Of a stretch of DNA of 64,000 nt, positions 5,054-39,898 are shown piece by piece. The translations under genes and the position numbers were made by a program. The stretch covers positions 290,001-354,000 of the forward strand of contig NZ_CP053562.1 in NCBI RefSeq assembly GCF_002085925.2. The letters run 5' to 3'. The stretch is from Thioclava electrotropha. GTDB taxonomy: Bacteria > Pseudomonadota > Alphaproteobacteria > Rhodobacterales > Rhodobacteraceae. Positions within the stretch are counted from its first letter, which is position 1. Each line of letters opens with the position of its first letter. Under the pieces are notes generated by a model. That model had not been told where the DNA came from and made no database searches. It saw only the letters and a list, made by a program, of their open reading frames with translations.

Positions 5054-5054
5054 A

Positions 5055-7215: not shown

Positions 7216-7241
7216 TTGCTCTGGTCTACGCTGTCGTATTC

Positions 7242-7345: not shown

Positions 7346-7408
7346 AGCGAAGCACTGCAAGCCGTGGCTGCTCCCGGGTTCGTCGGTGTTCCCCTGGAAC
7401 CCACATGC

Positions 7409-7886: not shown

Positions 7887-7975
7887 CGCAGTCCTTTCAT
7901 CGGTTGAGTTGATGAACCGATGCTTGCGACCGTGGTTTGCGCTAAGCAATTGCTGATAAATAGAAAAACACTTTA

Positions 7976-9929: not shown

Positions 9930-10113
9930 TAGTGTCTCCCATCGAGCCACCTAACTGTTTCCATGGAAGCGCTATGGAAGCACGAGGCAGCGAAAACGAT
10001 GCCTTAGTGATGAGTCATGAGCGTAGTTGTTGTCCAGAATAAAATATCTGAATCAATGGCTTGGCGGGCTGTGGCGTCGAGCGAAGCAATCTGGCGAAAA
10101 GGTCGTGCACAAA

Positions 10114-10158
10114 CTCATAACCTGAAGGTCGTAGGTTCAAATCCTACTCCCGCAACCA
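10114..10158 (+). repeat. Attachment site copy 2 (3' half of tRNA-fMet)
   Basis: This is an exact 45-base copy of tRNA-fMet from the anticodon loop to CCA. The sequence to its left is unrelated to tRNA, so it is not a functional tRNA. It is the right end of island A and the left end of island B, and it encodes the C-terminus of the serine recombinase on the other strand. Confidence 0.92.
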
Positions 10159-11755
10159 CTTCTACCGAACTTGGATCAAGACGCTGCGCAGCTTCGGGCT
10201 GGGCAAGTCCAATGAGCGCCGTGATGGCGCCCTCGAGTTCGACTGTAACCTTCTCTCCATCGACATGTATTGTCACCGAACTGATGAGACCTCGGATGGT
10301 CTCAAGCGCCGCCGTGCGGATTGCAGGGTCGGAAAGCGTCTGTGCGAGGTCCGTAACCTTGCGTCGATAAATCTCGCTCAGCCCCGGGTGAAGACGCACC
10401 GGAGAAGGTTGGGGCGCTGTCAGTTCTGCCTCGACGATGATCTTGCGCGCTTCCAGGTCTTCGAGCTTCGCCATGAGCCCGGCCGTGCGCAGGCCGTCAG
10501 CAATGGCGTCGTAGAGACCTTCCAACCGACGAGTGAGCTGTGCGAGTTCAGCCTCATGGCGCGCGCGTTTGGCGGTCTCCTCCGAGCGCCCAGCATTCAC
10601 CTCTTCTCCGTAGGCAGCAATGAAGGCGGCGACCGCTCTGGGCTGCATCAAGCGCTCGCGGAGCAGGTCGAGAACAAGGGCCTCAAGCTCTCCGCGCTTG
10701 AACGAGCGGCGCTGCGTGCAGGTGCCGAGCTTGCGTGCCGCCGAGCAGGCGAGGTAATCCTTGCCCACGGCCGCGAAGCCACCTCCGCAGCAGCCGCAGC
10801 GCAGAAGACCCGTCAGCAAATGGACCTTGCGCTTCTTCTCCCAGAACCTTGTTGCTCGGATCGCCTGTACTCGGGGCTCGGCATCGATCTCGCCCTGCCG
10901 ACGCTTCACCGCTTCCCAGAGGTTGTCGTCGATAATCCGCAGATCCGGGACCTCATTGATGATCCATTCCTGCGGCGGATTGCGCCGTGAGACGCGTTTA
11001 CCGGTCTCGGGATCCTTCATGTAGCGCAGCCTGTTCCAGACGAGGCGCCCGATATAGAGCTCGTTATTGAGAAGCCCCGTGCCCCGGATCCGATGGCCAC
11101 GGATGGCGGTATCACGCCAGAGCGCGCCACGCGGGCCGGGGACATGGTCCGCGTTCAGGCGCTTGGCGATGGCTTTGGGCGAATGACCTTCGCTGAACTC
11201 CTTGAAAATGCGCTTGATGATCTCGGCCTCAGTGGGGTTGATCGTTCTCTCTCCCGTAACCGGCAGGCCGTCTGGCCCGAGGCGGCGCACCACGTCATAG
11301 CCATAGCTATTGCCGCCACCGGAATGCCCGCTTTCAACACGGCCGCGCAGGCCGCGGCGGGTTTTGGCTGCAAGATCCTTGAGGAAGAGCTGGTTCATCG
11401 TGCCCTTGAGGCCCACATGCAGCTCGGTGACCTCGCCCTCCGCAAGCGTCACGATCTTCACCCCATGAAACGTGAGCCTTTTGTAGAGCGTCGCGACATC
11501 GGCCTGGTCGCGGCTGAGGCGATCGAGGGCTTCGGCGAGCACGATGTCGAAGGCCCCGCGGCCCGCTTGCTCCAAGAGGCTTTGCAGCCCCGGGCGCAGA
11601 ATGGTCGCGCCCGAAAGCGCCATATCGGAAAATACCTCGCTCACCGTCCAGTCGTCGCGTGCGGCGCGTTCCTGGCACAGGCGAACCTGGTCTTCGATCG
11701 AGGCTTCGCGCTGCATCTGGGTTGAGAAACGGGCGTAAATGGCAACTCGGGTCAT
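10115..11755 (-). CDS. Large serine recombinase
   Basis: The protein has 546 residues. The N-terminal resolvase domain starts VAIYARFST with nucleophile Ser11 and includes EALDRLSRDQADVA. The Recombinase domain follows (about 150-270, with YGYDVVRR and GPRGALWRDTAIRGH), then a zinc ribbon near 315-345 (CGCCGGGFAAVGKDYLAC and a later GTC) and a coiled-coil. It cuts and rejoins DNA through a phosphoserine link. The last 13 or so residues (VAGVGFEPTTFRL) are read from the tRNA-derived attachment repeat. The start overlaps the stop of the upstream tyrosine recombinase gene (ATGA, 11752-11755), so the three recombinases form one operon. Confidence 0.92.
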   Translation of the reverse strand: MTRVAIYARFSTQMQREASIEDQVRLCQERAARDDWTVSEVFSDMALSGATILRPGLQSLLEQAGRGAFDIVLAEALDRLSRDQADVATLYKRLTFHGVKIVTLAEGEVTELHVGLKGTMNQLFLKDLAAKTRRGLRGRVESGHSGGGNSYGYDVVRRLGPDGLPVTGERTINPTEAEIIKRIFKEFSEGHSPKAIAKRLNADHVPGPRGALWRDTAIRGHRIRGTGLLNNELYIGRLVWNRLRYMKDPETGKRVSRRNPPQEWIINEVPDLRIIDDNLWEAVKRRQGEIDAEPRVQAIRATRFWEKKRKVHLLTGLLRCGCCGGGFAAVGKDYLACSAARKLGTCTQRRSFKRGELEALVLDLLRERLMQPRAVAAFIAAYGEEVNAGRSEETAKRARHEAELAQLTRRLEGLYDAIADGLRTAGLMAKLEDLEARKIIVEAELTAPQPSPVRLHPGLSEIYRRKVTDLAQTLSDPAIRTAALETIRGLISSVTIHVDGEKVTVELEGAITALIGLAQPEAAQRLDPSSVEVVAGVGFEPTTFRL

Positions 11756-25761: not shown

Positions 25762-26781
25762 TCACGAGGCCAGAAGCTCTTTCAGCTTGTCGTCGATGAA
25801 TTTGACGTCGTCGGGGTTCGTCCCGGGGCCGCCAGCGAAATGGCCCCAGATCGACGGAACCGGGACGAACTCGGCGTTGGGCATGTTGGCGACTTCGATC
25901 TCGCTGTCTTCCGGCGGGAAATAGAGGTCGGTCTGGCCGGGCATGACATAGGCTTTCGCCTTGATCGCGCCGAGCGCCGCTTTGTAATCGCCGTTATACA
26001 GCTCGTTCGCGCTGATATCGCCATTCTGCCAGGTCCAGGCCATGGTCAGCAGGTTGTTGGCGTCTTTCGGCAGGAAGAACCCTTCCCAGAAGCCGATCAG
26101 GAAATCCTCGAGCGAGGCGTAGCCGAGGGTCTTCAGGTCGAGCTCTTCCCGATAGAAGCTCTGTGAGAAGCCCCAGCCTGCATAGACGCGGCCAACCGCG
26201 CGCAGGCCTTTTTCGGGCTTAGAGGTGTAGCGCCCGTTTTCCCACGCGGCGTCGGCCCGCAGCGCCGCCTTCACCCCTTCGAGGAAGACATAGTTGTGGC
26301 GGGAGCATTTCGCCGACCCGCAGAACGGGGCGATCAGATCCATCATCTCGGGATACATCGCCCCCCAGTGGAATGTCTGCAGCGCGCCCATCGACCAGCC
26401 GGTCACCATGCGGATGTTCTCGATGCCGAACTTCTCGGTCACCAGACGATGCTGCGCCTTGACGTTGTCGTAGGCGGTCACGTTCGGGAAACGGTCCGCG
26501 TTATAGGGCTCCGGCGTGTTCGAGGGCGAGGTGGAGAGCCCGTTGCCGAACATGTTCGGAATGATGATGAAGTATTTCTCGGGGTCGAGCGCCATGCCGG
26601 GCCCGATCAGCCATTCGTTGTCGTAATGCTGCCCGGAATACCACGTCGGGTAGACGATCACGTTGTCCTTGGCCGCGTTCAGCTTGCCGAAGGTCTTGTA
26701 GGCGAGACGGGCGTTGGGCACGGCGAGGCCGCATTGGAACTCGAAGGTGCCAAGCTCGAAGATTTCATAATCAAGGGTCAT
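25762..26781 (-). CDS. Alpha/beta hydrolase, homoserine O-acetyltransferase-like
   Basis: The protein has 339 residues. It has an alpha/beta-hydrolase fold of the MetX-like group: FELGTFEFQCGLAVPNARLA at the N-terminus, the nucleophile elbow GWSMGALQ with Ser, Asp in GQTDLYFPPEDSE and His near the end in IWGHFAGGP. Many such proteins are hydrolases of small amides or esters rather than true methionine enzymes. The gene follows the NCS1 transporter by 67 bases with an 11-bp intercistronic hairpin. The upstream ANTAR-type leader would put it under AmiR, which suggests a role in amide or related nitrogen-compound use rather than methionine synthesis. Confidence 0.82.
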   Translation of the reverse strand: MTLDYEIFELGTFEFQCGLAVPNARLAYKTFGKLNAAKDNVIVYPTWYSGQHYDNEWLIGPGMALDPEKYFIIIPNMFGNGLSTSPSNTPEPYNADRFPNVTAYDNVKAQHRLVTEKFGIENIRMVTGWSMGALQTFHWGAMYPEMMDLIAPFCGSAKCSRHNYVFLEGVKAALRADAAWENGRYTSKPEKGLRAVGRVYAGWGFSQSFYREELDLKTLGYASLEDFLIGFWEGFFLPKDANNLLTMAWTWQNGDISANELYNGDYKAALGAIKAKAYVMPGQTDLYFPPEDSEIEVANMPNAEFVPVPSIWGHFAGGPGTNPDDVKFIDDKLKELLAS

Positions 26782-26848: not shown

Positions 26849-28180
26849 TCAGGCGGTCGCGGTTTTCCCGCTCAACGTGGAGATCAGATAGTAAGCAACG
26901 CCGCCGACAAGTCCGGCCGAGATGGCGGTCGACAGATGGGGCAGATACCACTCGACGACGAAGGCCACCGCGGAGCCACAGGCCCAGGCGATGAAGGCCG
27001 TCCAGCGCCAGTCGCGGTCGATCTCGGAGTTCTTGCGCACGAGGAACTGGTCCACGAGGATGATCGCACCGATCGGCGGCACGAGGATGCCCAGCAGGGA
27101 CAGCCACTCGATGAAGAAAGCCCAGACATTGGTGGCCGCGATGACGATGCCGATGGCCCCGAGGATCACTGCGAAAAGACGCATGTGGCTGCGCAGGATG
27201 CGCGACCAGCCGGTGGCGGCGTTATAGAGGCAGTGGGCACAGACCGAGCCGAGGTTCACGTAGAGGAACAGGAAGGCGAGGACGCTCAGCCAGGTCATCT
27301 GCATGTTGTTCATATAGCCGAACATGTTGTCGGTGCCGAAGGGGTTGGCATCCGGAACGGCCAGGGCTGCGGTCATGATGCCGCCGACCAGCATCGCGGC
27401 GAGGTTGGCGAAGGGGAAGGCGCTGAAGGTCGCGACCCAGGAGCTTTTCGTGTCCTTGGCCCAACGGTTGAAGTCGGCGCTCACGGTGCCGGCGTCGATG
27501 AAGAGCGCGATGACCACGGTCAGGCCGACGCCCATCGACATCGTCGCGACGCCATTATTGCCCGGGTAGGACATGATCGCGTCCCAGCTGGTCGTCGAAG
27601 CCGCGTCGCCGACGACGAAGAGGCCCAGAATGACGAAAAGCGGCACCGAGATCATGCCGATCAGGTGCAGGCCTTTAACGCCCACGAAGGTGACGCCGAT
27701 ATAAAGCGCACCGGCGATGAGCGTCATGACGACGTAGTTCAGGTCATAGGTGGAGCTGACGAGCGCGCCGGTGATGCCGGTTTGCACCGCGTACCAACCA
27801 AGTAGAAGCGTCGAGAGCAGGCCGGAGGCGAAGACATAGCCCTTGCGGCCGAAGACGATGCTGGCGAGCAGGGCGAAGTTCATCCCTTTCGTCGCACCGA
27901 GCTGCCCGAGCAGACCGACATAGACCAGCATGATCAGGTTGCCGATGATCATCGCCGTCAGCGCGGAGCTGAACCCCATGCCGAGCACGAGGATCGAGCC
28001 GGTCATCGCGCCGGTGATGATCATCGGGAAACCCATCCAGACCATCGTGACGGAGAACATGCTCCGCCGGGCTTTTGCCGGGACCGGTTCATGTTCGTAT
28101 TCATCGCCGAGCGCGTGATCGATCTCTTCTTCGATATGTTCGAGCGCCTCTGGCTCGAGATGCTTTTCCGTCGTGGTCAT
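26849..28180 (-). CDS. NCS1-family transporter (cytosine permease-like)
   Basis: The protein has 443 residues from the ATG at 28180, preceded by GAGGAAC; the longer frame to 28462 runs through the leader. An acidic N-terminus of about 45 residues is followed by about 12 hydrophobic helices. ITGAMTGSILVLGMGFSSAL, in TM1, and DQFLVRKNSEIDRDWRW-like loops fit the cytosine permease/nucleobase-cation-symport-1 family, which imports nucleobases, hydantoins or related compounds with Na+ or H+. The substrate is not shown. The transcript starts behind a terminator controlled by a candidate ANTAR element. Confidence 0.87.
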   Translation of the reverse strand: MTTTEKHLEPEALEHIEEEIDHALGDEYEHEPVPAKARRSMFSVTMVWMGFPMIITGAMTGSILVLGMGFSSALTAMIIGNLIMLVYVGLLGQLGATKGMNFALLASIVFGRKGYVFASGLLSTLLLGWYAVQTGITGALVSSTYDLNYVVMTLIAGALYIGVTFVGVKGLHLIGMISVPLFVILGLFVVGDAASTTSWDAIMSYPGNNGVATMSMGVGLTVVIALFIDAGTVSADFNRWAKDTKSSWVATFSAFPFANLAAMLVGGIMTAALAVPDANPFGTDNMFGYMNNMQMTWLSVLAFLFLYVNLGSVCAHCLYNAATGWSRILRSHMRLFAVILGAIGIVIAATNVWAFFIEWLSLLGILVPPIGAIILVDQFLVRKNSEIDRDWRWTAFIAWACGSAVAFVVEWYLPHLSTAISAGLVGGVAYYLISTLSGKTATA

Positions 28181-28437: not shown

Positions 28438-28481
28438 AAAAGCCCCTCACGAATCCATTCACATGGTTCGTAAGGGGCTTT
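28438..28481 (-). terminator. Regulated intrinsic terminator before the NCS1 operon
   Basis: On the minus strand a stem of about 17 bp (AAAGCCCCTTACGAACC with GGATTCGTGAGGGGCTTT, one bulge) encloses ATGTGAAT and ends in UUUU. Its 5' strand contains the GCC that closes the second ANTAR hairpin, so both cannot form together. Confidence 0.8.
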
Positions 28482-28513
28482 CATTGCCAGATGCGGCGCT
28501 CTTCGTTGAACGC
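28476..28513 (-). promoter_or_regulatory. Candidate ANTAR RNA element (NCS1 operon)
   Basis: Read on the minus strand, hairpin P1 is GCGTTC-AACGAA-GAGCGC (28513 to 28496), a six-base loop with A1 and G4. Seven bases later, hairpin P2 is GGC-AATGAAA-GCC (28488 to 28476), again with A1 and G4. This is the dual-hairpin pattern bound by ANTAR-domain proteins. P2 overlaps the terminator stem. AmiR, encoded 1.4 kb away, is the obvious partner. Confidence 0.78.
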
Positions 28514-28740
28514 TACGTCAACACGATGGCGTGATTCGTTTCAATATGCAAATGTTTTGATGTAACGATGTAAGGCGCTGAAAATAATGCGGAAAAAATT
28601 TCATCGCATGATTTCAGATGCGTTTTGCAATGCGTCGATCTTGCCGCGACGTCAGTCATTTGCTATTCGATTCGTATGTGACCGTTCCCCCGGACTCCGC
28701 ATTCGCGGGAGTTCTCGTTGAAAGATATGGAACCGTATTA

Positions 28741-29904
28741 ATGGCTTTTGACAACGAGCCGGTCGCAGTTGGCCTCCTTTTTTCCCAAACCGGTGTAACG
28801 TCGGTGATCGAGCGCACGCAGCGTCAGGCTGCGCTGCTGGCTATCGAAGAAATCAACAATGCAGGCGGTATCGATGGTCGTGAACTTCTGATCGAAGACA
28901 GCGACCCGGCTTCCGATCCGTTGCGCTTCAAGAGCGAGGCGGAGCGCCTCATCGATGTTGGCGCAAAGACCATCTTCGGCTGCTACATGTCCTCCGCGCG
29001 CAAGGCCGTCTTGCCCGTGGTCGAGCAACGCCGCGCGCTGCTGTTCTACCCCACGCTCTACGAAGGGTTCGAGTTTTCGAGCAGCTGCGTCTATTCGGGC
29101 GCTGCCCCGAACCAGAACTCGCGTTGGCTGGCGGATTATCTCACGCAGACCTATGGCGACCGGTTTGTCTTCGTCGGGTCGAACTACGTTTTCCCCTATG
29201 AATCCAATCGGATCATGCGGGATTTGCTGATGCATCGCGGGGCGAAGGTCGTCGATGAAATCTACATCCCCCTGCGCCATAACGAGGAATATATCGAGCG
29301 GGCGATCTCGCGCATCAAGGCTGCGGGGCCTGCGGTCGTATTCTCCACGGTCGTGGGCGAAGGGTCGGTCCGCTTCTACCAAGCCTATGACCGCGCGGGC
29401 TTCGATCGCAGCAAGCAGCCCATCGCCAGCCTGACCTCGGGCGAGCCCGAGCTGCTGGCGGTCGGCAAGGATGCGTCGATCGGCAACGTGACGGCCGCGC
29501 CCTATTTCAGCGTGCTCGATACCGAGGCGAACCGTCGCTTCGTCACGGCCTATGCGCGCCGGTTCGGGCCGGATCAGCCGATTTCGGCAGGGACGGAAGC
29601 CGCCTATTTCCAAGTCTATCTCTTCGCGGAAGCCGTGCGCCGGTCCGGGGCGACCGATCGCGATAGCGTCTTGCGCACCTTGCCGAATTTCAGCTTCGAG
29701 GCGCCGCAGGGCCCCGTGCAGGTCGAAGGGGACACCCATCACACGAGCCTCTGGCCCCGGGTTGCCGTCGTCGGCGAAAGCGGGGCTTTCGAGATCGTGC
29801 GCGAAGCGCAGGCACCGGTGCGGCCCGACCCTTATCTCGTTGAATATGATGAAGACTTGCAGATGACGTCTCCGCAATTCGGAGCCGGAGGGGGCGGAAG
29901 CTGA
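28741..29904 (+). CDS. amiC: Amide sensor AmiC
   Basis: The protein has 387 residues from the ATG at 28741; Pseudomonas AmiC is 385. It has a periplasmic-binding-protein fold of type I (Peripla_BP_6) without a signal peptide, so it stays in the cytosol. PVAVGLLFSQTGVTSVIERT and SSARKAVLPVVEQRRALLFY, then PTLYEGFE, match the AmiC/UrtA group. In Pseudomonas AmiC holds AmiR inactive and releases it when acetamide binds. The stop overlaps the start of amiR (TGATG at 29902-29906), as in that system. An upstream in-frame start at 28618 is not supported by a ribosome site. Confidence 0.92.
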   Translation: MAFDNEPVAVGLLFSQTGVTSVIERTQRQAALLAIEEINNAGGIDGRELLIEDSDPASDPLRFKSEAERLIDVGAKTIFGCYMSSARKAVLPVVEQRRALLFYPTLYEGFEFSSSCVYSGAAPNQNSRWLADYLTQTYGDRFVFVGSNYVFPYESNRIMRDLLMHRGAKVVDEIYIPLRHNEEYIERAISRIKAAGPAVVFSTVVGEGSVRFYQAYDRAGFDRSKQPIASLTSGEPELLAVGKDASIGNVTAAPYFSVLDTEANRRFVTAYARRFGPDQPISAGTEAAYFQVYLFAEAVRRSGATDRDSVLRTLPNFSFEAPQGPVQVEGDTHHTSLWPRVAVVGESGAFEIVREAQAPVRPDPYLVEYDEDLQMTSPQFGAGGGGS

Positions 29905-30512
29905 TGCCCCGGCTGCGTCTCAAGGATTTGCGCGACCTCTCGGTCATCGTCGTCCACCCGCCGGACGCAGATGGCAAGGCGCTCATGGATCAGCTCAAAC
30001 GCATCGGCTGCCGCGCGGAACTGATGTGGCCCCCCGCCAAGGCGCTGCCGAGCGGGACGGATGTCGTTTTCGCAGGCGTCTTCTTCGAGAGCCAGAGTGC
30101 CCTGAGCAGCATGCTGCGGAAGTCCGAGAAACCCGGTCCGACGGTGATCGGCATCGTGAATTACGAGAACCCGGCGATGATCGAACTGGTGCTCGACATC
30201 AACGCATTCGCGGTGATTTCGAAGCCGGTCCGGACTTTCGGTATGCTGACAAATCTTGTCGTCGCACGCTCCAATTGGATGCAGGCGGCGGATTTCCACG
30301 ACAAGATCGGCAAGCTCGAAAAGAAGATTTCCGGTCAGAAGAAGATCTCGAAGGCGAAGTCTATCCTCATGGAAATGCACAAGATTTCCGAGAGGGAAGC
30401 CTATGGCACCATTCGTGCGCAGGCGATGGGTAAGCGGATTTCCGTAGAGGAAATGGCGGTCGCGATCATCAACGCAAACGAATTGTTGTCATCAAGACCG
30501 GATGATGTATAG
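29904..30512 (+). CDS. amiR: Transcription antitermination regulator AmiR (ANTAR)
   Basis: The protein has 202 residues. The N-terminal pseudo-receiver domain (LRDLSVIVVHPPDADGKALM to about residue 120) is followed by a coiled-coil (DKIGKLEKKISGQKKISKAK) and a C-terminal ANTAR domain, SILMEMHKISEREAYGTI, RAQAMGKRISVEEMAVAII. It lacks an ordinary phospho-acceptor context, as AmiR does, and is controlled by AmiC binding. ANTAR proteins bind paired hairpins in leader RNA and stop terminator formation. The leaders at 30521-30598 and 28438-28513 carry such hairpins. Confidence 0.93.
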   Translation: MPRLRLKDLRDLSVIVVHPPDADGKALMDQLKRIGCRAELMWPPAKALPSGTDVVFAGVFFESQSALSSMLRKSEKPGPTVIGIVNYENPAMIELVLDINAFAVISKPVRTFGMLTNLVVARSNWMQAADFHDKIGKLEKKISGQKKISKAKSILMEMHKISEREAYGTIRAQAMGKRISVEEMAVAIINANELLSSRPDDV

Positions 30513-30520
30513 TCGAATCA

Positions 30521-30562
30521 GATCGATGGCCAATGATGTCCATCGGTTCGGCACAGAAAGCC
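30521..30562 (+). promoter_or_regulatory. Candidate ANTAR RNA element (amide operon leader)
   Basis: Hairpin P1 pairs CGATGGCC (30524-30531) with GTCCATCG (30538-30545), one mismatch, around the hexaloop AATGAT with A1 and G4. The stem can extend by three further pairs. Hairpin P2, GGC-ACAGAAA-GCC (30550-30562), again has A1 and G4 in the loop. P2 overlaps the first strand of the terminator at 30560-30592. It begins 8 bases after the amiR stop. Confidence 0.85.
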
Positions 30563-30598
30563 CGCTGAAGACACTGTAGTGTCTTCGCGGGCTTTTTT
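30560..30598 (+). terminator. Regulated intrinsic terminator before the amide operon
   Basis: GCCCGC (30560-30565) pairs with GCGGGC (30587-30592), and GAAGACAC with GTGTCTTC, around TGTA, with one bulged T. Six U residues follow (30593-30598). It lies between amiR and the transporter operon and would be disrupted when AmiR stabilises P2. Confidence 0.92.
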
Positions 30599-30863: not shown

Positions 30864-32114
30864 ATGAAAACGAACCGGAGAAACTTCCTAAAACACACGA
30901 CCGCTTTCGGCGCCGCAGCCGCCCTCGGCCCGTCGATGATCGGGAGCCCCGCGCGCGCCTCGGGTGAAATCGAAGTGGGCGTCCTGTTCTCGCTGACCGG
31001 CGGCCTTTCGATCATCGAGAAATCGCTCGCCGATGCCACGATGATGGCGATCGACGAGATCAACGCCGCAGGCGGCGTGAACGGGATGATGATCAAGCCG
31101 ATCCTCGAAGACGGCGCATCCGACCCGAAGACCTATAACGAGAAGGCCTCGAAGCTGGTGATCCGCGATCGCCTGCAGACCGTGTTCGGCTCTTACACAT
31201 CGGCGAGCCGCAAGGCCGTTCTGCCGGTCTTCGAAAAGCGCAACAGCCTCTACTTCTACCCGACCTATTACGAAGGCTTCGAGTGCTCCAAGAACGTGGT
31301 CTACACGGGCGCGGTGCCGAACCAGCAGCTGTCGAACTTCATCCCGTGGATCACCAACACGCTCGGCAAGAAGAAGTTCTTCATCGTCGGCTCGAACTAC
31401 ATCTACCCGCGCGAGATGGCGAAAGTGTCGAAGATCCTCATCGAGCAGAATGGCGGCGAGTGGGTCGCGGACGAATATCTCGAGCTCGGCCATTCCGAAT
31501 GGGGCGCGATGGTCTCCAAGATCAAGGAAAGCGGCTGCGACGTGGTTCTGTCGAATGTCGTGGGCGACTCGGTCGTGGCCTTCTACCGCGAGTTCAAGAA
31601 CCAGGGCCTGACCCACGACAAACTGCCGATCTGCGCGACCGTCACCTCGGAAATCGAGATCGCCGCGATGGGTCCGGAATTCGCCGAAGGCAGCTACACC
31701 TCCTTCCCGTATTTCCAGGCCATCGACACCGATCGCAACCGCGATTTCATCGAGCGCTACCGCAAATATGTCAACGATCCCAAGGCTGTGACGCACCACG
31801 CGCTCGAGAGCAGCTACTTCCAGGTCTATCTTTGGAAGCAGGCGGTCGAGAAGGCTGGCGACATCTCGGCAGATGCGGTGCGCGAAGGCATCAAGGGTCA
31901 GGTCTTCGAGGCCCCGAACGGCACCGTCACCGTCGATCCGGAAAACCTGCACACCTACCTCACGCCGCGCATCGCGCAGTGGGGCGCCGATGGTCAGGGC
32001 ACGATCGTCAACGCCTATGACGCACCGACCAAGCCGCTGCCCTACGTCGCTTACGGCGAGACGGCAGAGAACCTGTTCTGCACCGGCGCCGGTCTCGACA
32101 CCACCAAGCTGTGA
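30864..32114 (+). CDS. Urea/short-chain amide ABC transporter, substrate-binding protein
   Basis: The protein has 416 residues from the ATG at 30864. A twin-arginine signal (TNRRNFLKHTTAFGAAAA, ending near ARA) precedes a Peripla_BP_6 domain with GEIEVGVLFSLTGGLSIIEK and SASRKAVLPVFEKRNSLYFY, then PTYYEGFE. It is the UrtA/FmdD type. It closely resembles AmiC, so sensor and transporter protein probably bind the same kind of ligand. The Tat signal means export in folded form. A 9-bp hairpin follows the gene (32123-32148), as often seen after binding-protein genes to keep their mRNA in excess. Confidence 0.9.
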   Translation: MKTNRRNFLKHTTAFGAAAALGPSMIGSPARASGEIEVGVLFSLTGGLSIIEKSLADATMMAIDEINAAGGVNGMMIKPILEDGASDPKTYNEKASKLVIRDRLQTVFGSYTSASRKAVLPVFEKRNSLYFYPTYYEGFECSKNVVYTGAVPNQQLSNFIPWITNTLGKKKFFIVGSNYIYPREMAKVSKILIEQNGGEWVADEYLELGHSEWGAMVSKIKESGCDVVLSNVVGDSVVAFYREFKNQGLTHDKLPICATVTSEIEIAAMGPEFAEGSYTSFPYFQAIDTDRNRDFIERYRKYVNDPKAVTHHALESSYFQVYLWKQAVEKAGDISADAVREGIKGQVFEAPNGTVTVDPENLHTYLTPRIAQWGADGQGTIVNAYDAPTKPLPYVAYGETAENLFCTGAGLDTTKL

Positions 32115-32122
32115 CGCAAACC

Positions 32123-32148
32123 GGGCACCGGGCTGATGTCCGGTGCCC
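32123..32148 (+). promoter_or_regulatory. Hairpin after the binding-protein gene
   Basis: GGGCACCGG (32123-32131) and CCGGTGCCC (32140-32148) form a perfect 9-bp stem with an 8-base loop and no U-tract. It probably protects the upstream mRNA 3' end. Confidence 0.65.
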
Positions 32149-32171
32149 ATCCGAGCGAGGCGGAATTCCCT

Positions 32172-33065
32172 ATGTCTGACATCATCTTCATCGGCCTGTC
32201 CCTGTCTTCGATCCTGCTGCTGATCGCGCTTGGCCTGTCGATCACCTACGGCGCGATGGGCGTCATCAACATGGCGCATGGCGAGCTCGTCATGATCGGG
32301 GCCTATACGGCGGTGCTCGCCGGGCTCCATCTCGGGCTCAACCTGTTCTTCGCGCTGCCTCTGGCCTTCGTGACCTCCGGGCTCGTGGGGCTCGTGATCG
32401 AGCGATTGGTGATCCGAAGGCTCTACGGACGGATCATCGACACGCTGCTCGCGACATGGGGCGTGGCGATCCTGCTGCAACAGCTGATCCGCCTCGAATT
32501 CGGCCTGAGCTTCTTCGGTATCCATATCGACGGTCTCGGCCCGGGCCTGCAGAACATGACGGTTCCGGCCTTCCTCACCCAGCCGATCGACGTGGCGGGC
32601 ATGACGATCCAGCCCTATCGCACCTTCATCATCGTCGTGACGCTGATGCTCGCGGGTCTGACCTGGTGGCTGATGTATCGCACCCCGATGGGCGTTCAGG
32701 TGCGCGCGATCATGCGCAATCCCCAGATTGCGGCGGCCTGCGGTATCGACGTGCGCCGCGTCTCGGCGCTGACCTTCGCCTATGGCTCGGGCCTTGCCGG
32801 GATCGCCGGTGTGCTGCTCGCAGGCTTCAAGACGGTCATGCCCGAGATGGGCGCGTCCGTCGTGGTCGATGGCTTCCTCGTCGTCGTGGTCGGAGGGGTC
32901 GGCAGCCTTCTCGGAACGATCCTCGCTGCGGGCATTCTCGGACAGATCAACGGCATCGTCGCCTTGGCGTCCAACGACATCATCGCCCGCGCCGTCGTCT
33001 TCGCGGTGGTCATCGCCCTGATCCTGTGGCGCCCGCGCGGCCTGTTCTCCTTCAAGTCGAGGTAA
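32172..33065 (+). CDS. Branched-chain/urea-type ABC permease 1 (UrtB-like)
   Basis: The protein has 297 residues from the ATG at 32172. It has about eight membrane helices of the LivH/UrtB family, with LGLSITYGAMGVINMAHGEL at the start and the cytosolic EAA-type loop around RNPQIAAACGIDVRRVSALT. ATWGVAILLQQLIR is typical of UrtB. It forms the membrane channel with the next gene. The genes are closely spaced (3 bases to the next start). Confidence 0.92.
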   Translation: MSDIIFIGLSLSSILLLIALGLSITYGAMGVINMAHGELVMIGAYTAVLAGLHLGLNLFFALPLAFVTSGLVGLVIERLVIRRLYGRIIDTLLATWGVAILLQQLIRLEFGLSFFGIHIDGLGPGLQNMTVPAFLTQPIDVAGMTIQPYRTFIIVVTLMLAGLTWWLMYRTPMGVQVRAIMRNPQIAAACGIDVRRVSALTFAYGSGLAGIAGVLLAGFKTVMPEMGASVVVDGFLVVVVGGVGSLLGTILAAGILGQINGIVALASNDIIARAVVFAVVIALILWRPRGLFSFKSR

Positions 33066-33068
33066 GCG

Positions 33069-34241
33069 ATGTCCAGCGAAACGTCCTCCACACTTCCCAG
33101 CTCCACGAGCCGTCTTCAGAGTCATGCCGACTGGGCCGTCTATGCCGTCTTCATCGTGATGGTTCTCGGCGCGCCCCTGGTGATCGACGATGTGTTCTGG
33201 CTCAACCGCATCGCCAAATATCTCGTCTTCGGCATGCTCGGCATCGCGATCGCGCTGTCCTGGGGCTATGCCGGGATCCTCAATCTGGGGCAGGGGCTCT
33301 TCTTCGGCCTCGGCGCCTATATGACGGCGATGTCGCTCAAGCTGATGAGCGCCACGAGCCTCCAGCAGGGCTCCGACAAGCCGGTGCCGGACTTCATGCT
33401 CTGGAACGCAGAGCCCGGGGCCGTCACCGATCTGTGCTGCATCAACAAGGGCTCGTTCCTCTGGATTCCGTTCCAGTCGCAATGGTTCGGCATGGCGATG
33501 TCGATCGTGATCCCGCTGATCGTCGCCTTCGTGCTGTCCTCGTCGATCTTCCGGCTGCGCGTCTCGGGCGTCTATGTCGCGATCATCACGCTGGCGCTCG
33601 TGCTTCTGGTGCGGCTGCTACTCATCGACGCGCAGCCAATCACCAACGGGTTCAACGGGCTGACCGATCTGGGCTGGCTGACCATCGGCGGGTTCGAATT
33701 CGACCCCTATATGGTCGAGACCTATTACGTGGTCGCCGTCTCGCTCACGGTGGTCTTGCTGTTGGGCCGCTGGCTGGTCTCGACACGGGCCGGGCTGATC
33801 TTGCAGTCGACGCGCGATGATCCGACCCGGGCACGCTATCTCGGCTACGACGTCGCGGCCTATCAGATCTTCTTCTTCACGATCTCTGCCGGGATCGCGG
33901 GCTTCGCGGGGCTCCTCTATGTGGTCGCCGCCGAATTCGCCTCGCCGAGTTTCATGGATATCGGCTTCTCGATCTCGATGGTCGTCTGGGCCGCGGTCGG
34001 CGGGCGCAACTCGCTGCTCGGCGCCTGTATCGGGGCGATCCTGATCAACACGGTCGAGGCCACCGTCAGCGAGACCGAAATCTTCAAGGAAGCCTGGAAG
34101 CTGATCATCGGCGGGATCTTCGTCCTCGTCGTTCTCTACCTGCCGAACGGGCTTGCGGGCATCGCGCGCGATCTTCTGGGGCGGTTCGAACGCCGCCGGA
34201 AGGGCACGCCCGCAGAGCCGGCCCCGAAAGCCGCGGAATAG
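33069..34241 (+). CDS. Branched-chain/urea-type ABC permease 2 (UrtC-like)
   Basis: The protein has 390 residues. It is a LivM/UrtC-type permease with ALSWGYAGILNLGQGLFFGL, YMTAMSLKLM and the loop RDDPTRARYLGYDVAAYQIF. A loop near residues 95-130 contains DLCCINKGSFLW, an insertion usual in UrtC proteins. The C-terminus is basic. It pairs with the UrtB-like permease; the UrtD-like gene starts 11 bases after its stop. Confidence 0.92.
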   Translation: MSSETSSTLPSSTSRLQSHADWAVYAVFIVMVLGAPLVIDDVFWLNRIAKYLVFGMLGIAIALSWGYAGILNLGQGLFFGLGAYMTAMSLKLMSATSLQQGSDKPVPDFMLWNAEPGAVTDLCCINKGSFLWIPFQSQWFGMAMSIVIPLIVAFVLSSSIFRLRVSGVYVAIITLALVLLVRLLLIDAQPITNGFNGLTDLGWLTIGGFEFDPYMVETYYVVAVSLTVVLLLGRWLVSTRAGLILQSTRDDPTRARYLGYDVAAYQIFFFTISAGIAGFAGLLYVVAAEFASPSFMDIGFSISMVVWAAVGGRNSLLGACIGAILINTVEATVSETEIFKEAWKLIIGGIFVLVVLYLPNGLAGIARDLLGRFERRRKGTPAEPAPKAAE

Positions 34242-34252
34242 GAGGGACGGAC

Positions 34253-34999
34253 ATGAATGAAGCACTCACGATCGACGGGCTGACGGTGGATTTCGGCGGG
34301 TTCAAAGCCGTGGACGGGTTCACCACCGTGGTTCAGAAGGGCGAGTTGCGGGTCATCCTCGGCCCCAACGGCGCCGGGAAGACCACGCTGATGGATCTCG
34401 TCAGCGGCAAGACCGCTTCCACCCAAGGCAGCGTCCATCTCTTTGGCGAGAACATCACCAACCGCCCCGAGCACATCATCGCGCGGCACGGGATCGGGCG
34501 GAAATTCCAGATCCCGAGCGTCTTCCGCGATCTGACCGTGCGGCAGAACCTCGAAGTCGCGGCCTCGGGAGAACCCGGCGTATTCCGCAACCTTCGCCTG
34601 CACATGGTGGCGGAGGACCGGGCGCGGGTCGAGGACGTGATCGCGATGACGCGGCTCGAGCCGGTGCTCGATACGGTCGCGGGTGAGTTGTCCCACGGCC
34701 AGATGCAATGGCTGGAACTGGGGATGCTGATCACGCAACAGGCGAAGGTCATCCTTCTCGATGAACCCACTGCGGGCATGACCCATGCGGAGACCTTCCG
34801 CACCGCCGAAATCATCAACGAAATGAAGGGCAGCCACACGATCCTCGTGGTCGAGCACGACATGGCTTTCGTGCGCAAGATCGCCGAGCGGATCACGGTC
34901 ATGCAAATGGGCAAGCTGCTCGCGGAGGGCCCGATGGAAAAGATCGAGACCGATCCAAAGGTGCGCGAAGCCTATCTCGGTTCGGGAGGGATTCACTGA
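34253..34999 (+). CDS. ABC transporter ATPase (UrtD-like)
   Basis: The protein has 248 residues. Walker A is GPNGAGKTTLMDLV, the signature ELSHGQMQWLELGMLI and Walker B VILLDEPTAGMT. SHGQ instead of SGGQ and DEPTAGMT are characteristic of UrtD. The overlap of its stop with the next ATG (TGATG, 34997-35001) shows translational coupling. Confidence 0.93.
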   Translation: MNEALTIDGLTVDFGGFKAVDGFTTVVQKGELRVILGPNGAGKTTLMDLVSGKTASTQGSVHLFGENITNRPEHIIARHGIGRKFQIPSVFRDLTVRQNLEVAASGEPGVFRNLRLHMVAEDRARVEDVIAMTRLEPVLDTVAGELSHGQMQWLELGMLITQQAKVILLDEPTAGMTHAETFRTAEIINEMKGSHTILVVEHDMAFVRKIAERITVMQMGKLLAEGPMEKIETDPKVREAYLGSGGIH

Positions 35000-35691
35000 T
35001 GCTTTCTCTGAGCAATCTCAACAGCTTCTACGGCCGCAGCCAGGCGTTACACGACGTCTCGATGAGCGCGCCGAGCGGCACGATCCTCGCCGTTCTGGGC
35101 CGCAACGGCGTGGGCAAGACCACGCTTCTGCGCTCCATCCTCGGGCTGACCGACCGCCAGAGCGGCGACGTCGTGCTCGACGGGCAGAACATCTCGGCTG
35201 ATGCGACCTACCGGCGCGCGCGGGCGGGGATCGCCTATGTGCCGCAGGGCCGGATGATCATCCCCGATTTCACGATCCGCGAGAACATCCTGATGGGCGG
35301 TTTCGCGGCACAGGGCCCGCGCGCCATTCCCGAAATCGTCCCGAAGATCTTCCCCTATCTGATGGAAAATCTCGACCGGCCCGGCGGCGTGCTTTCGGGC
35401 GGTCAGCAACAGCAGCTTGCCATCGCCCGCGCGCTCGCAAGCGGCCCCAAGGTCCTCCTGATGGACGAGCCGACCGAGGGCATCCAGCCCAATATCGTCG
35501 AGCAGATCGAGGACATCATCATCCGCCTCAATGCCGAACTCGGACTGACGATCCTCCTTGTCGAGCAGAACGTGAAATTCGCGCGACGTGCCGCGCAGAA
35601 CTTCACGATGCTCGAGAACGGTCGCGTCGTGGCCGATGGCGCGATCGCGGATCTCACCGAGGAAACGGTCACCAAACACATGGCGATCTGA
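34999..35691 (+). CDS. ABC transporter ATPase (UrtE-like)
   Basis: The protein has 230 residues. Walker A is GRNGVGKTTLLRS, the signature LSGGQQQQLAIARAL and Walker B VLLMDEPTEGIQPNIVEQIE. The last phrase is the hallmark of UrtE-type ATPases of urea and short-amide transporters. It ends the five-gene transporter set, and the amidase gene follows after a hairpin. Confidence 0.93.
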   Translation: MLSLSNLNSFYGRSQALHDVSMSAPSGTILAVLGRNGVGKTTLLRSILGLTDRQSGDVVLDGQNISADATYRRARAGIAYVPQGRMIIPDFTIRENILMGGFAAQGPRAIPEIVPKIFPYLMENLDRPGGVLSGGQQQQLAIARALASGPKVLLMDEPTEGIQPNIVEQIEDIIIRLNAELGLTILLVEQNVKFARRAAQNFTMLENGRVVADGAIADLTEETVTKHMAI

Positions 35692-35703
35692 CCCCATAAA
35701 CCC

Positions 35704-35728
35704 GCCTTCCCGGATCAACCGGAAAGGC
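35704..35728 (+). promoter_or_regulatory. Hairpin upstream of amiE
   Basis: GCCTTCCCGG (35704-35713) pairs with CCGGAAAGGC (35719-35728) with one mismatch around ATCAA. It lies between the transporter genes and amiE and has no U-tract. It is a candidate mRNA processing or stabilising element. Confidence 0.55.
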
Positions 35729-35762
35729 ATTCGACAACTCCACCAACAGCAGAGGTAACAAC

Positions 35763-36806
35763 ATGTATCATGGAGATATTTCGAGCAGCGCCGATACCGT
35801 GGGCGTCGCCGTCGTCAACTACAAGATGCCGCGTCTTCACACGAAGGCCGAGGTTCTCGAGAACTGCCACAAGATCGCCGACATGGTGAAAGGCATGAAG
35901 AAGGGTCTGCCGGGCATGGATCTGGTGATCTTCCCCGAATACTCGACACACGGCATCATGTATGACGAGACCGAGATGTACGAGACCGCCTCGTCGGTGC
36001 CGGGCGAAGAGACTGAAATCTTCGCCGCCGCCTGCCGCGAAGCCAATGTCTGGGGCGTGTTCTCGCTGACCGGCGAGCGCCACGAAGAGCACCCGAAGAA
36101 AGCGCCCTACAACACGCTCATCTTGATGAACAACGAGGGCGAAATCGTTCAGAAATACCGCAAGATCATGCCCTGGGTTCCGATCGAGGGCTGGTATCCG
36201 GGCAACTGTACCTATGTCTCGGAAGGCCCGAAGGGCATGAAGATGAGCCTCATCATCTGTGATGACGGCAACTACCCCGAAATCTGGCGCGACTGCGCGA
36301 TGAAGGGTGCCGAGCTGATCATCCGCTGCCAGGGCTACATGTATCCGGCCAAGGACCAGCAGGTGATCATGGCCAAGGCGATGGCCTGGGCGAACAACTC
36401 CTATGTCGCGGTCGCGAATGCGGCAGGCTTCGACGGCGTCTATTCCTATTTCGGCCACTCGGCCATCGTCGGCTTCGACGGCCGCACGCTGGGCGAATGC
36501 GGCGAAGAGGAATACGGCATCCAGTACGGTCAGCTCTCGGTCTCCGCGATCCGCGATGCGCGCAAGAACATGCAGAGCCAGAACCACCTCTTCAAGCTCG
36601 TGCACCGTGGCTATACCGGCATGATCAACTCGGGTGACGACACCAACGGCCTCGCCGAGTGCCCCTACGACTTCTACACCAAATGGGCGGAAGATCCGGA
36701 AGGCACGCGCGAGATGGTCGAGGCGATGACCCGCTCGACCGTCGGTACCGAGGAATGCCCGATCGACGGTATCCCCAACGAAAAGTCCGACCCCACTCAC
36801 CGGTGA
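35763..36806 (+). CDS. amiE: Aliphatic amidase
   Basis: The protein has 347 residues; the Pseudomonas enzyme has 346. It hydrolyses short-chain amides such as acetamide and propionamide to the acid and ammonia. The nitrilase-fold catalytic triad falls at the same numbers as in the known enzyme: Glu59 in LVIFPEYST, Lys134 in KYRKIMPW and Cys166 in [13 protein letters not shown]. It is closer to the aliphatic amidase than to formamidase by length and C-terminus ([17 protein letters not shown]). It lies between two stem-loops, which may raise its expression over the transporter genes. It follows GCAGAGGTAACAAC. Confidence 0.95.
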
Positions 36807-36864: not shown

Positions 36865-37662
36865 ATGACGATCGATCAGTACCGGCTTGAGGAAGAGCCG
36901 ACCTACCACCCGAGCGGCGACGAGGTGGCCTTCTACGAATCCGCCTATGCGGCGCGCTTGCCGGTGATGCTCAAGGGGCCGACCGGTTGCGGCAAGACCC
37001 GCTTCGTCGAGCATATGGCATGGCGTCTGGGCAAGCCGCTCATCACGGTGTCCTGCCACGAGGACATGACCGCCTCGGATCTTGTCGGGCGCTTCCTGCT
37101 CGGCCCCGAAGGCACCCATTGGCAGGATGGGCCGCTCACGATGGCGGTGCGTCACGGCGCGATCTGCTATCTCGACGAGGTGGTCGAGGCGCGTCAGGAC
37201 ACGACGGTGGTGATCCATTCGCTGACCGATGATCGCCGGATTCTGCCGCTCGAGAAGAAGGGCGAACTCGTCCATGCGCATCCCGATTTCCAGCTCGTGA
37301 TCTCCTACAATCCCGGCTACCAGAGCGTTCTCAAAGACCTCAAGGAATCCACGAAGCAACGCTTCAGCGCGGTCGATTTCACCTATCCGATGGCCTCGGT
37401 CGAGGCTTCCATCGTGGCGTCCGAGGCGGATATCGCCGCCGACATCGCCGACAAGCTTGTGAAGATCGCCGAGAAGTCGCGGCATCTGCGCGGGCAGGGG
37501 CTCGAGGAAGGGGCGTCCACGCGGATGCTCATCCATGCCGGTCGCCTCATAAAGACGGGCATGACGCTGACCGACGCCTGCAAACATGCGATCATCGTTC
37601 CCATCACGGATGACCCGGATATGCGCGGTGCGCTCGATGCGGTCGTCGATGCCTGTGCCTGA
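36865..37662 (+). CDS. MoxR-type AAA+ ATPase (NorQ/CbbQ/AmiB-like)
   Basis: The protein has 265 residues. Walker A is [17 protein letters not shown], Walker [12 protein letters not shown], and sensor 1 [10 protein letters not shown], as in the NorQ/CbbQ/GvpN group. These ATPases work with a VWA partner to activate metal or multimeric enzymes. In Pseudomonas amiB, an ATPase gene, lies right after amiE; this gene is in the same place. The VWA gene at 37649/37667 follows directly. Confidence 0.9.
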
Positions 37663-37666
37663 CAGC

Positions 37667-39898
37667 ATGAATGTCGAAGCCACCCCTGACCTGCCGGGCG
37701 CGATCCGCAGCGCCTTCTCGGCGCCCGAGATAGCCGACTGGCTGCGGGCGCGCGAACGGCTTCGGGGCGCGGGATACGGGCGGACGGTCCCCCGCGCCTA
37801 TGAGCGCAGTTCGCTGGCTCTTGCGCCGAAACTCGGGGCGGGGCCGACGATCGCCTTGGCAAAGCTCGTGTCCCATGTCGCGATCCGGGTCTCGCCCCGC
37901 GCGGCGGAGCGCGTCTGCACTGCGGCGGACACGGTCGCGCAGAGATACGAGCCGGAGGAGTTCACGGCGTGGCTCGCGCTGATGACGCGGATCACCACGC
38001 AAGCGCCGGAGTCCGTGTATCCCTTTCTCGATAATTTGGAACGGCTTGTTGGGCGGCTCTCCGAACAGGCGCTCGAGGACTGGGTGGCGACCGGATTGCG
38101 TCTGGCGGGGCGCGATGCCGACAAGCGAAGCGCCTATTTCTCCTTGCAGACCGCCGAGGCGCAGCGCGCGCTTGAACACGAAAGCGGAGAGCAAAGCTTC
38201 TACGATCACGAGCGCCGGTTGCGGGCCTATCTCACGGCGATTTCCGGCGCGACCCCGCCGCTGCGCGTCGCGCCCACGGGCATGGGAGAGAAAGCCGCGC
38301 GGCGGGTGTCCTTCGCGGGCAATGTCATTCTCGTGCCGCCCAGCTTGCCCGGCTATCGCGGCGAGACGGAGCCCCTGTTCCGCGCCGCGCTCGCCCATAT
38401 CGGGGCGCATATCAACTTCACCAAAACCCGTTTCGAAATCGGGCAGCTCAAGCCGCTTCAGATGGCGGTCGTGTCTCTGATCGAGGATGCGCGGGTCGAG
38501 GAACTGGCGGCGCAGGAAATGCCCGGGTTGCGCAGGCTCTGGCAAGGCTTTCACGTCGCCCAACCCGGCGGGCTACCGACCGCGCCCAGCCTGTTCGCAC
38601 GGCTGGCGCGGGCGCTGATCGATCCCGATTTCGACGATCCCGACGGGTGGGTTCAGAAAGGCCGCCGGATGTTCATGGAGGCGCGCGAGCGCTGGGCCGA
38701 TCCGGCGATCAGCCGCGAGATCGGCAATCTGCTGGGCAACGATCTCGGGCAGCTTCGCGTGCAGTTCAACGCGAAGGATTACGTGGTTCAGCCCGCCTAT
38801 CGCGACGACAATCTCGGTCTGTGGGCCCTCGACGAACCGCCCCCGGAAGAGGCGCAGACCCTCGAAGTTCAGGTCGATACCGTGCAGCTGCGTCGCTCCG
38901 AGCCGACCCCGGGTGCGGTCAAGCAATCGCAACAGCAGGAGCAGACCGAAAGCGACAGGGTCGAGAAGGTCGCCCCCGTGACCGAGGACGCCGAGGAGGG
39001 GCGGGCGGTCGCCTCCTATCCCGAATACGACTACGAGATCGGTCGGGAACGCGCGAATTGGACGGTGGTCAAGGAATACCCCGCGACGCCGGGCAATCGC
39101 CGCTTCTGGCAGGAGTTGCAGGACGCGCAGGGGCCGCTTCTGTCGCGCATCACCGGTCTTGTGCGCTCGGCGCAGATCGGGCGCGCGCGCCGGGAGAAAC
39201 GGCAGGCGGAGGGAGAAGTGCTCGATCTCGACGCCTGTATCGAGGCGGCGACGGCCCTGCGGGCGGGCGAGTTTCCCGATCATCGCCTCTACGAGCGGCA
39301 GGCCCCGCCGACGCGCGATCTCGCGGTCAGCCTGCTCCTTGATATCTCGCAATCGACCGCCGATCTCGTCCCCGGAACGCAGCATCGCATTCTGGACATG
39401 GAGCGCGATGCGACGGCGGTTCTCGCCCATGCGATGAACGAAATCGGCGACCCTTTCGCGATCAACGCTTTCTGCTCGGCCGGGCGCGAAGACGTGCGCG
39501 TCGTTGCGGTGAAGCGGTTCTCCGACGCGTTGGATGAAGAGACGGGTTCGGCGCTGTCGGGCCTGAAGCCGGGCTATTCGACGCGGCTCGGGGCCGCCCT
39601 GCGCCATGCCGGGAAGGACCTCGCGCAGGTGCCGCGGCATCGTCGCCTGCTGCTGTTGATCACCGACGGCGAGCCCTCGGATATCGACTCGCCCGACCCG
39701 GACTATCTTGTCCGCGACGCGCAGCGCGCCGTTCGCAGCCTGAGCGCGCTGGGGATCGATGTCTTCTGCGTGGGGCTCGGGCCGCGAAACAAGGAGCAGG
39801 AGGCCGCGATTTTCGGGCGCAACGGGTTCATCCAGATCGACGAGCTGAGCACGCTGCCGGACAAGCTTTTGTCGCTCTATCTCCGGCTGACCCGGTAA
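37667..39898 (+). CDS. VWA-domain protein (NorD/CbbO-like)
   Basis: The protein has 743 residues from the ATG at 37667; an ATG at 37649 overlapping the previous gene is also possible. The first 450 residues are Ala/Arg-rich helical repeats. The C-terminal von Willebrand A domain has the metal site DISQSTADL (DxSxS) and LLLITDGEPSDID. This is the architecture of NorD and CbbO, which partner NorQ/CbbQ-type ATPases. Here it probably helps assemble or activate the amidase or the transporter. A bidirectional terminator follows. Confidence 0.9.
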   Translation: MNVEATPDLPGAIRSAFSAPEIADWLRARERLRGAGYGRTVPRAYERSSLALAPKLGAGPTIALAKLVSHVAIRVSPRAAERVCTAADTVAQRYEPEEFTAWLALMTRITTQAPESVYPFLDNLERLVGRLSEQALEDWVATGLRLAGRDADKRSAYFSLQTAEAQRALEHESGEQSFYDHERRLRAYLTAISGATPPLRVAPTGMGEKAARRVSFAGNVILVPPSLPGYRGETEPLFRAALAHIGAHINFTKTRFEIGQLKPLQMAVVSLIEDARVEELAAQEMPGLRRLWQGFHVAQPGGLPTAPSLFARLARALIDPDFDDPDGWVQKGRRMFMEARERWADPAISREIGNLLGNDLGQLRVQFNAKDYVVQPAYRDDNLGLWALDEPPPEEAQTLEVQVDTVQLRRSEPTPGAVKQSQQQEQTESDRVEKVAPVTEDAEEGRAVASYPEYDYEIGRERANWTVVKEYPATPGNRRFWQELQDAQGPLLSRITGLVRSAQIGRARREKRQAEGEVLDLDACIEAATALRAGEFPDHRLYERQAPPTRDLAVSLLLDISQSTADLVPGTQHRILDMERDATAVLAHAMNEIGDPFAINAFCSAGREDVRVVAVKRFSDALDEETGSALSGLKPGYSTRLGAALRHAGKDLAQVPRHRRLLLLITDGEPSDIDSPDPDYLVRDAQRAVRSLSALGIDVFCVGLGPRNKEQEAAIFGRNGFIQIDELSTLPDKLLSLYLRLTR

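Follow-up and report, generated by a model that had tools for sequence, protein, structure and literature searches.

AmiR is one of the founding ANTAR proteins. According to the available part of PMC3369931, binding of amide makes AmiC free AmiR in Pseudomonas aeruginosa, and in the published model the freed ANTAR protein holds two successive leader hairpins, P1 and P2, and the terminator is prevented (PMC3369931 and PMC3369936, each as far as its available part goes). Section 10 of PMC3369931 describes AmiR as acting on a single locus and EutV as one ANTAR protein with several targets, one of which lies outside the eut locus. The same section defines P2 by its stems and by A1 and G4 (A at the first and G at the fourth loop position), and the methods of that paper, in the part available, specify hexanucleotide loops. 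Here we describe a candidate ANTAR antitermination leader in a stretch of 64,000 nucleotides of Thioclava electrotropha DNA, called the window, in which positions are given unless stated otherwise. From its sequence and its comparison across genomes, we consider it highly probable that the minus-strand element at 28513-28438 is the amide-responsive leader of an operon encoding an NCS1 transporter and a MetX-like hydrolase and that it is read by the neighboring AmiR.

Anatomy of two leaders and the genes around them

The NCS1 leader was read directly from the minus strand. P1, GCGTTC-AACGAA-GAGCGC at 28513-28496, has a 6-bp stem and a hexaloop with A1 and G4, and thus the form that Ramesh et al. 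2012 give for P1 of an ANTAR leader (a stem of at least 3 bp and a six-base loop with A1 and G4). A linker of 7 nt, CGCATCT at 28495-28489, leads to P2, GGC-AATGAAA-GCC at 28488-28476, which has the 3-bp stem that is the least allowed for P2 and keeps A1 and G4 in a loop of 7 nt. Direct reading and folding indicated an intrinsic terminator hairpin of 18 pairs, AAGCCCCTTACGAACCAT-GTGA-ATGGATTCGTGAGGGGCTT, at 28480-28440, after which TTTT was read at 28441-28438; the U-tract is short and consists of four T, GCG, and four T. The 3′ strand of P2 (28478-28476) is part of the terminator 5′ arm, and P2 and the terminator foot are therefore mutually exclusive. The leader is noncoding, lies upstream of the NCS1 start codon (ATG, 28180), and has the right orientation for a terminator overlapping P2, such that the overlapping terminator falls outside coding sequence as expected of an ANTAR leader. 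Predicted folding energies were −7.4 kcal/mol for P1, −2.2 kcal/mol for P2, and −28.9 kcal/mol for the terminator. Relative to 200 shuffles, the terminator with its tail had a z score of −8.9 and the full 80 nt one of −7.5, and the stretch from 28520 to 28480, containing P1 and P2 without its 3′ strand, was of ordinary stability (z = −0.87, equaled by 41 of 200 shuffles). We conclude that a preliminary description of this DNA was accurate both in placing P1, a seven-base spacer, and P2 on the minus strand (28513-28476) and in reporting a strong terminator whose first strand holds the closing GCC of P2.

The gene behind the leader (26849..28180, minus strand), preceded by GAGGAAC, encodes a cytosine-permease-like NCS1 transporter of 443 aa. 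Its match to PF02133 (77.4 bits against a cut-off of 23.5; E value of 1.3e-21) places it in the NCS1 family, it aligns with the solved cytosine permease 7qoa (6.1e-29), and the protein is 100% identical in two Thioclava records. The carrier fell under the cut-off of the PRK11017 cytosine permease model and, because it also fell below those of the NCBIfam cytosine permease and ncs1 models, no substrate was assigned. The operon's second gene (25762..26781, minus strand) encodes a MetX-like alpha/beta hydrolase of 339 aa from the PRK07581 family, with 564 bits against NF005757 (cut-off of 332). Its score against the equivalog model of the homoserine O-acetyltransferase MetX lay below the cut-off (TIGR01392, 143 bits against 500). 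The nearest solved structures were 5e4y (256 bits) and 5d6o (246 bits), with the next at only 84 bits; both were deposited under homoserine O-acetyltransferase, and we take them to be the ester hydrolases MekB and CgHle. MekB was not named in the literature searched for relatives of the hydrolase.

Divergent from the NCS1 and hydrolase genes are the amide genes, namely, amiC, amiR, a leader, a urt-like ABC transporter, and amiE. The amiC gene (28618..29904, plus strand) encodes an amide-sensor-like binding protein (PF13433, 6e-125). The frame at 28618 may be open too far upstream, with a possible start at ATG 28741 (MAFDNEPVAVG); when AmiC was compared with relatives by tblastn, several alignments started at residues 24 to 49, and those to loci L009 and L077 started at residue 1. 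The proposed reader is encoded by amiR (29904..30512, plus strand) and has an AmiR_N and an ANTAR domain (PF21332, 2.1e-41; PF03861, 2e-13); residues 6 to 188 of 202 align with the P. aeruginosa AmiR structure 1qo0 (1.6e-28). Profile matches define the amide operon at 30864..36806 on the plus strand, with urt-like ABC transporter genes and the aliphatic amidase gene amiE (35763-36806, plus strand; PRK13286 aliphatic amidase, 719 bits). On the same strand after amiE are genes for a CbbQ/NorQ-like ATPase and a VWA-domain protein (36865-39898). Elsewhere in the window, the tRNA gene at 2266-2339 has a second copy of its 3′ part near 10114, with a spacing of 7,816 bases and beside a tyrosine-recombinase-like open reading frame at 8772-9950 (labeled from reading of the frame); the interval from 2298 to 10160 looks like an element integrated in the tRNA gene.

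A first element, implied when the preliminary description called the NCS1 element the second, was located in front of the amide operon at 30521-30598 on the plus strand. Scanning and folding indicated a P1 with a C.T mismatch at 30521-30547 and a P2, GGC-ACAGAAA-GCC, at 30550-30562, and folding indicated a terminator that extends to about 30598. The P2 loop is 7 nt, not 6, in both leaders of the genome, and in the window, L010, L011, and L077 alike, both leaders show the form GGC-AnnGAAA-GCC; in NCS1 leaders that the strict scanner found beyond the Thioclava/Pseudodonghicola group, the P2 loop has six bases. The pattern GGCANNGAAAGCC matched the genome 10 times, and only the matches in the NCS1 and amide leaders run into an overlapping terminator. 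Amide-leader P1 stems, of Thioclava and of distant genomes, are often mismatched (C.T or C.C) below the loop-closing C-G pair, and the P1 stem was unbroken in 25 of the 29 NCS1 leaders found by scanner.

Both leaders also carry the motif GAATCA, which precedes P1 by approximately 20 nt in the NCS1 leader (28532-28558, minus strand) and immediately in the amide leader (30515-30520, plus strand). AAAA.ATTTGCA followed by CGAATCA is common to roseobacter NCS1 leaders, and GAATC occurred at most 70 nt from P1 in 16 of 37 leaders, compared to 0.10 per shuffled leader. GAATCA is perhaps a transcript start or part of a promoter. A promoter scan returned one sigma-70-type site for the amide leader, on the plus strand, and none for the NCS1 leader.

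We propose that the NCS1 leader works as an amide-dependent switch, with AmiR as the presumed RNA-binding protein, amide as the presumed signal, and read-through as the predicted response. Without amide, AmiC would hold AmiR, the terminator would form, and transcription would halt before NCS1. With amide, AmiR would be freed from AmiC, by analogy with P. aeruginosa, and would bind the loops of the nascent P1 and P2. Bound AmiR would stabilize P2, which would take AAGCC from the foot of the terminator (five basal pairs, AAGCC/GGCTT). The terminator would then be shortened and moved off the U-tract, and polymerase would proceed into the NCS1 and hydrolase genes. If AmiR does read the NCS1 leader, the amide operon and the divergent NCS1-hydrolase operon are both under its control.

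Conservation and placement of the element in relatives

Elements were sought with scanners whose thresholds were not preset: the strict scanner was written after inspection of the window element and an exploratory scan, and the extended scanner was devised after amide leaders had been viewed. On both strands of the window, the strict scanner reported one site, the NCS1 leader, and the extended scanner reported two, the NCS1 leader and the amide leader. A scan of genome contigs led to 82 confirmed stretches, and the best 80 of these contained 77 distinct NCS1 loci. A strict element was present within 700 nt upstream of NCS1 in 16 of these 77 loci, compared to 2 of 1,540 dinucleotide shuffles, and the 16 represent 14 distinct elements, the window's own among them. 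Relaxing P1 added one locus (3 of 1,540 shuffles), and the extended scanner found an element upstream of NCS1 in 29 of the 77 loci from those best 80 stretches (5 of 1,540 shuffles). Across the complete loci, 27 strict sites were found in 1,872,164 strand-bases, 16 of which were NCS1 leaders, 8 of which lay right behind amiR before urtA, and 3 of which lay elsewhere. The eight amide leaders constitute an unplanned positive control.

Presence of the element differed with the position of NCS1. Among the 77 loci of the 80 best stretches, the hydrolase gene was downstream of NCS1 in 74 (it was absent from L034, L047, and L053), and in 36 NCS1 immediately followed amiE in the same orientation. In the other 41 loci, NCS1 was divergent from the amide genes, far off, or at the head of the run NCS1-hydrolase-amiC-amiR-urtA, as in Mesorhizobium. 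Neither the strict nor the extended scanner detected an element before NCS1 in any of the 36 loci with amiE directly upstream, and an element was detected in 29 of the 41 loci without it (16 strict and 13 extended). For the remaining 12 of the 41, negative by both scanners, L015 was caught by the relaxed scanner, and inspection by eye indicated a terminator and element-like hairpins with unusual loops in L016, L019, L020, L034, L035, L063, L079, and L080. No element-like hairpins were detected before NCS1 in L026, L033, and L051, either by the scanners or by eye. The L026 genome had no ANTAR match, the sole such case among 32 genomes examined; the L033 genome had three and the L051 genome one, and these matches in genomes with an element-less NCS1 are not explained by a reading in which AmiR acts on NCS1.

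The leaders of the relatives were not uniform. P2 loops lacked G4 in L012-L014, L017, L022-L024, and others of the Mesorhizobium/Stappia type, and G4 in P2 is therefore not universal among the leaders called homologous. L012, L013, L014, and L017 had the P2 loop AGTTAG, AGTTAA, or AGTTGA and a P1 in the mismatch form. The order element-NCS1-hydrolase-amiC-amiR-element-urtA on a single strand was observed in L023, L024, L027, L035, L050, L078, L079, and L080; in L035, L079, and L080, the element before NCS1 was recognized only by eye and by the covariance model R1 described below. Where an element precedes NCS1-hydrolase-amiC-amiR, AmiR would boost its own synthesis.

The preliminary description had named covariation in orthologous loci as a test of both hairpins. 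P1 was aligned in 19 rows chosen for pairing, namely, the window and 18 of the 30 loci in which at least one scanner detected an element. The alignment excludes L008 and L009, which duplicate the window; L039, which duplicates L038; the close copies L027, L036, L050, and L078; the mismatched P1 of L012-L014 and L017; and L015. In these pairing-selected rows 94 of 95 cells were paired, and 34 of the 95 were altered on both sides, compared to 10.0 in shuffles, with none of 500 shuffles reaching 34. The covariation score was 0.98 versus 0.20 in shuffles and was likewise equaled by none of 500, and no slid version of the alignment matched either quantity. Further pair types reached a count attained by 9 of 500 shuffles; the number of pairs with two-sided change (4 of 5) was matched in 426 of 500 shuffles and alone carries no information. 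The closing C-G pair, A1, and G4 were invariant in the 19 rows. We conclude that the P1 structure, in rows selected for pairing, is kept through two-sided changes in relatives, distant genera among them, as expected of an ANTAR leader, and that the P2 stem, GGC/GCC, hardly varies and permits no judgment on covariation.

A conservation footprint that does not depend on a pairing-based choice of rows was obtained by aligning the entire leader of the window, L010, L011, and L077. Identical columns in these four leaders made up 13 of 18 in P1, 11 of 13 in P2, and 11 of 14 and 12 of 17 in the terminator arms. Identity was lower elsewhere: the linker had 0 of 7 identical columns, the terminator loop 3 of 14, and the downstream part of the leader 76 of 241. 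Variation within P2 was confined to loop positions 2 and 3.

Model-based searches gave a mixed result. Rfam (15) returned no match at the NCS1 or amide leader of the window up to an E value of 10. The covariance-model search that the preliminary description had also suggested was conducted with R1, built from 16 NCS1 leaders that do not belong to the Thioclava group, and it succeeded on some leaders absent from training and failed on both leaders of the window, where its best match lay elsewhere (14.5 bits, E value of 0.71). In a further test on 28 loci with E values up to 1, R1 found 5 of 14 scanner-recognized amide leaders (L126, 34.0 bits; L117, 29.4; L035, 28.6; L079, 28.5; L080, 28.2) and missed those of L116 (the window's own), L010, L011, L077, L118-L121, and L123. 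It also found 4 of 17 untrained NCS1 leaders (L080, 28.7 bits; L079, 21.6; L035, 20.9; L063, 20.8). Other matches were to its own training leaders L021 and L028 (L128:207-246 and L129:318-357), to urtA-side elements on the minus strand of L015 (20.1 bits) and L016 (19.8 bits), and to a position just behind a second amiR-like gene (L013:10671, 22.5 bits); matches of 19 to 21 bits at L128:19169, L124:4774, and L010:985 were probably due to chance. A simpler pattern of P2 plus terminator in its seven-base form matched only the two leaders in the T. electrotropha genome (control, none), and its six-base form had 0 matches (control, 2). The seven-base pattern matched 218 of 292 genomes of the order, and the first 25 listed rows of that scan held 35 matches versus 27 in the control; one or two matches per genome are therefore expected by chance, and uniqueness in the own genome lends weak support.

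These results bear on whether the NCS1 element is a switch in present use. The terminator might be a plain attenuator or boundary terminator and both hairpins might be chance; a strong terminator would by itself keep its arms conserved, the segment comprising P1 and the 5′ portion of P2 has ordinary stability, and the model built on distant leaders misses the window's NCS1 leader. We regard such a coincidence as very improbable, however, as a strict site was so rare in shuffled sequence, P1 and the variable P2-loop positions behave as expected of an ANTAR element, and the element is missing from all 36 loci in which amiE is directly upstream. The same failure of the model, together with a P2 that departs from six nucleotides, could instead mark the element as a relic of an ancestral joint operon, with regulation lost in Thioclava. 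Decay of this kind is hard to reconcile with P1, P2, and the terminator arms being kept while the linker, terminator loop, and flanks drift, or with the identical P2 deviation of the T. electrotropha amide leader, and we give the relic very little credence.

Candidate ANTAR proteins for the NCS1 leader

If the NCS1 element is an ANTAR antitermination leader, as we propose, the genome must encode an ANTAR protein, and two were found: the AmiR of the window and a second AmiR-like protein that likewise has AmiR_N and ANTAR domains. The second AmiC-like/AmiR-like pair lies at about 1986600-1988300 of the genome (G000:C1; L115 10604-12312), beside a Dpp/Opp-type ABC transporter (labeled from sequences). 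Among 292 genomes of the order, NCS1 was detected at E values up to 1e-60 in 5, T. electrotropha included, and these were the 5 top AmiR_N scorers of the 292, with the two genes no more than about 10 kb apart on one contig. The probability that 5 of 5 NCS1 genomes fall among the 16 genomes with AmiR_N above 100 bits is 2.6e-7. Moreover, the genomes of L018, L030, L037, L040, and L047, each with a strict NCS1 leader, had a single ANTAR match each, which in all five was the AmiR of the amiC-amiR-urtA cluster; the cluster is on another contig than NCS1 in these genomes, and the assemblies may be incomplete. The available part of the EutV-RNA structure paper names 11 residues as RNA contacts (PMC8934654). 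When these contacts were mapped by our own alignment, AmiR kept 8 of the 11 (K143, K147, K149, E160, Y164, R168, M172, and R175) and differed at 142, 173, and 177 (Q, G, and S). The EutV chain is numbered with an offset of two, and all eleven EutV residues fit once this offset is applied.

A switch at the NCS1 leader could also be read by the second AmiR-like protein, or by both proteins, which we consider unlikely. The second protein exists with the same two domains, and genomes with more than one ANTAR match were frequent (14 of 19 searched). In the five leader-bearing genomes, however, the AmiR of the amide cluster was the sole ANTAR protein found, and in T. electrotropha the window AmiR is encoded adjacent to the NCS1 leader and its own amide leader shares the 7-nt P2 loop. 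Moreover, the 19.9 kb around the second AmiR-like protein contained no strict site, and a lone extended match there looks like chance. That the window AmiR acts on the NCS1 operon as well as on the amide operon had been claimed in the preliminary description, and the genomic tests, which were mostly favorable (footprint, P1 covariation, enrichment, co-occurrence of NCS1 with AmiR, and the five single-ANTAR genomes), support AmiR as the probable reader.

The putative AmiR regulon and described ANTAR systems

An element precedes both operons here and in many relatives, and the amide sensor therefore probably turns on the two in concert. More broadly, and with moderate confidence, we suggest that Alphaproteobacteria share a two-branch AmiR regulon in which an ABC transporter and amidase form one branch and the NCS1 carrier and the MetX-like, probably ester, hydrolase form a second uptake-and-hydrolysis branch for an amide-related compound. 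The second branch would be kept under AmiR by its position behind amiE, by a leader of its own if separated, or, in the Mesorhizobium type, by heading the NCS1-hydrolase-amiC-amiR run, with AmiR raising its own expression. If this is right, AmiR runs a small regulon whose conservation spans Rhodobacterales, Rhizobiales, and Acetobacteraceae and that points to an uncharacterized carrier/hydrolase pair in amide use. The two leaders of T. electrotropha, with P1 with and without a mismatch and P2 of the seven-base form in both, make a natural test set for the reading range of ANTAR proteins.

The preliminary description knew of no AmiR target of this kind, and we likewise found none described in the literature searched (PMC3369931, PMC8934654, PMC7496416, PMC6759348, PMC8164766, and PMC3369936, in their available parts; the supplementary tables of PMC3369931, on 1,902 genomes, are outside this scope). 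The available part of PMC3369931 lists urea transporters among the genes behind its hits, and these could include urt-like amide operons. The NCS1-hydrolase leader thus appears, as judged from sequence comparison, to be a new and conserved target of a known mechanism, ANTAR antitermination.

Among described systems, the NasT regulon of Bradyrhizobium diazoefficiens resembles the present one in that an ANTAR protein of an alphaproteobacterium serves several leaders (PMC6759348, available part). It differs in its nitrate signal and in targets such as nap, nos, and nirA, and neither an NCS1 carrier nor an amide gene is named among the NasT targets in the available part of that paper. The eut leaders read by EutV in Enterococcus faecalis share P1 and P2 with A1 and G4 and a P2 that overlaps the terminator (PMC3369931, available part). 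EutV, unlike AmiR here, is a phosphorylated receiver protein that responds to ethanolamine, and its leaders have hexaloops in both hairpins. Closest is the AmiR/amiE leader of P. aeruginosa, which shares the AmiR family, an AmiC-like partner, an amidase operon, and a dual-hairpin leader with a terminator (PMC3369931 and PMC3369936, available parts). Unlike the P. aeruginosa system, that of T. electrotropha includes a second operon, divergently oriented, that encodes an NCS1 carrier and a hydrolase and has an element of its own, and the P2 loop is 7 nt long.
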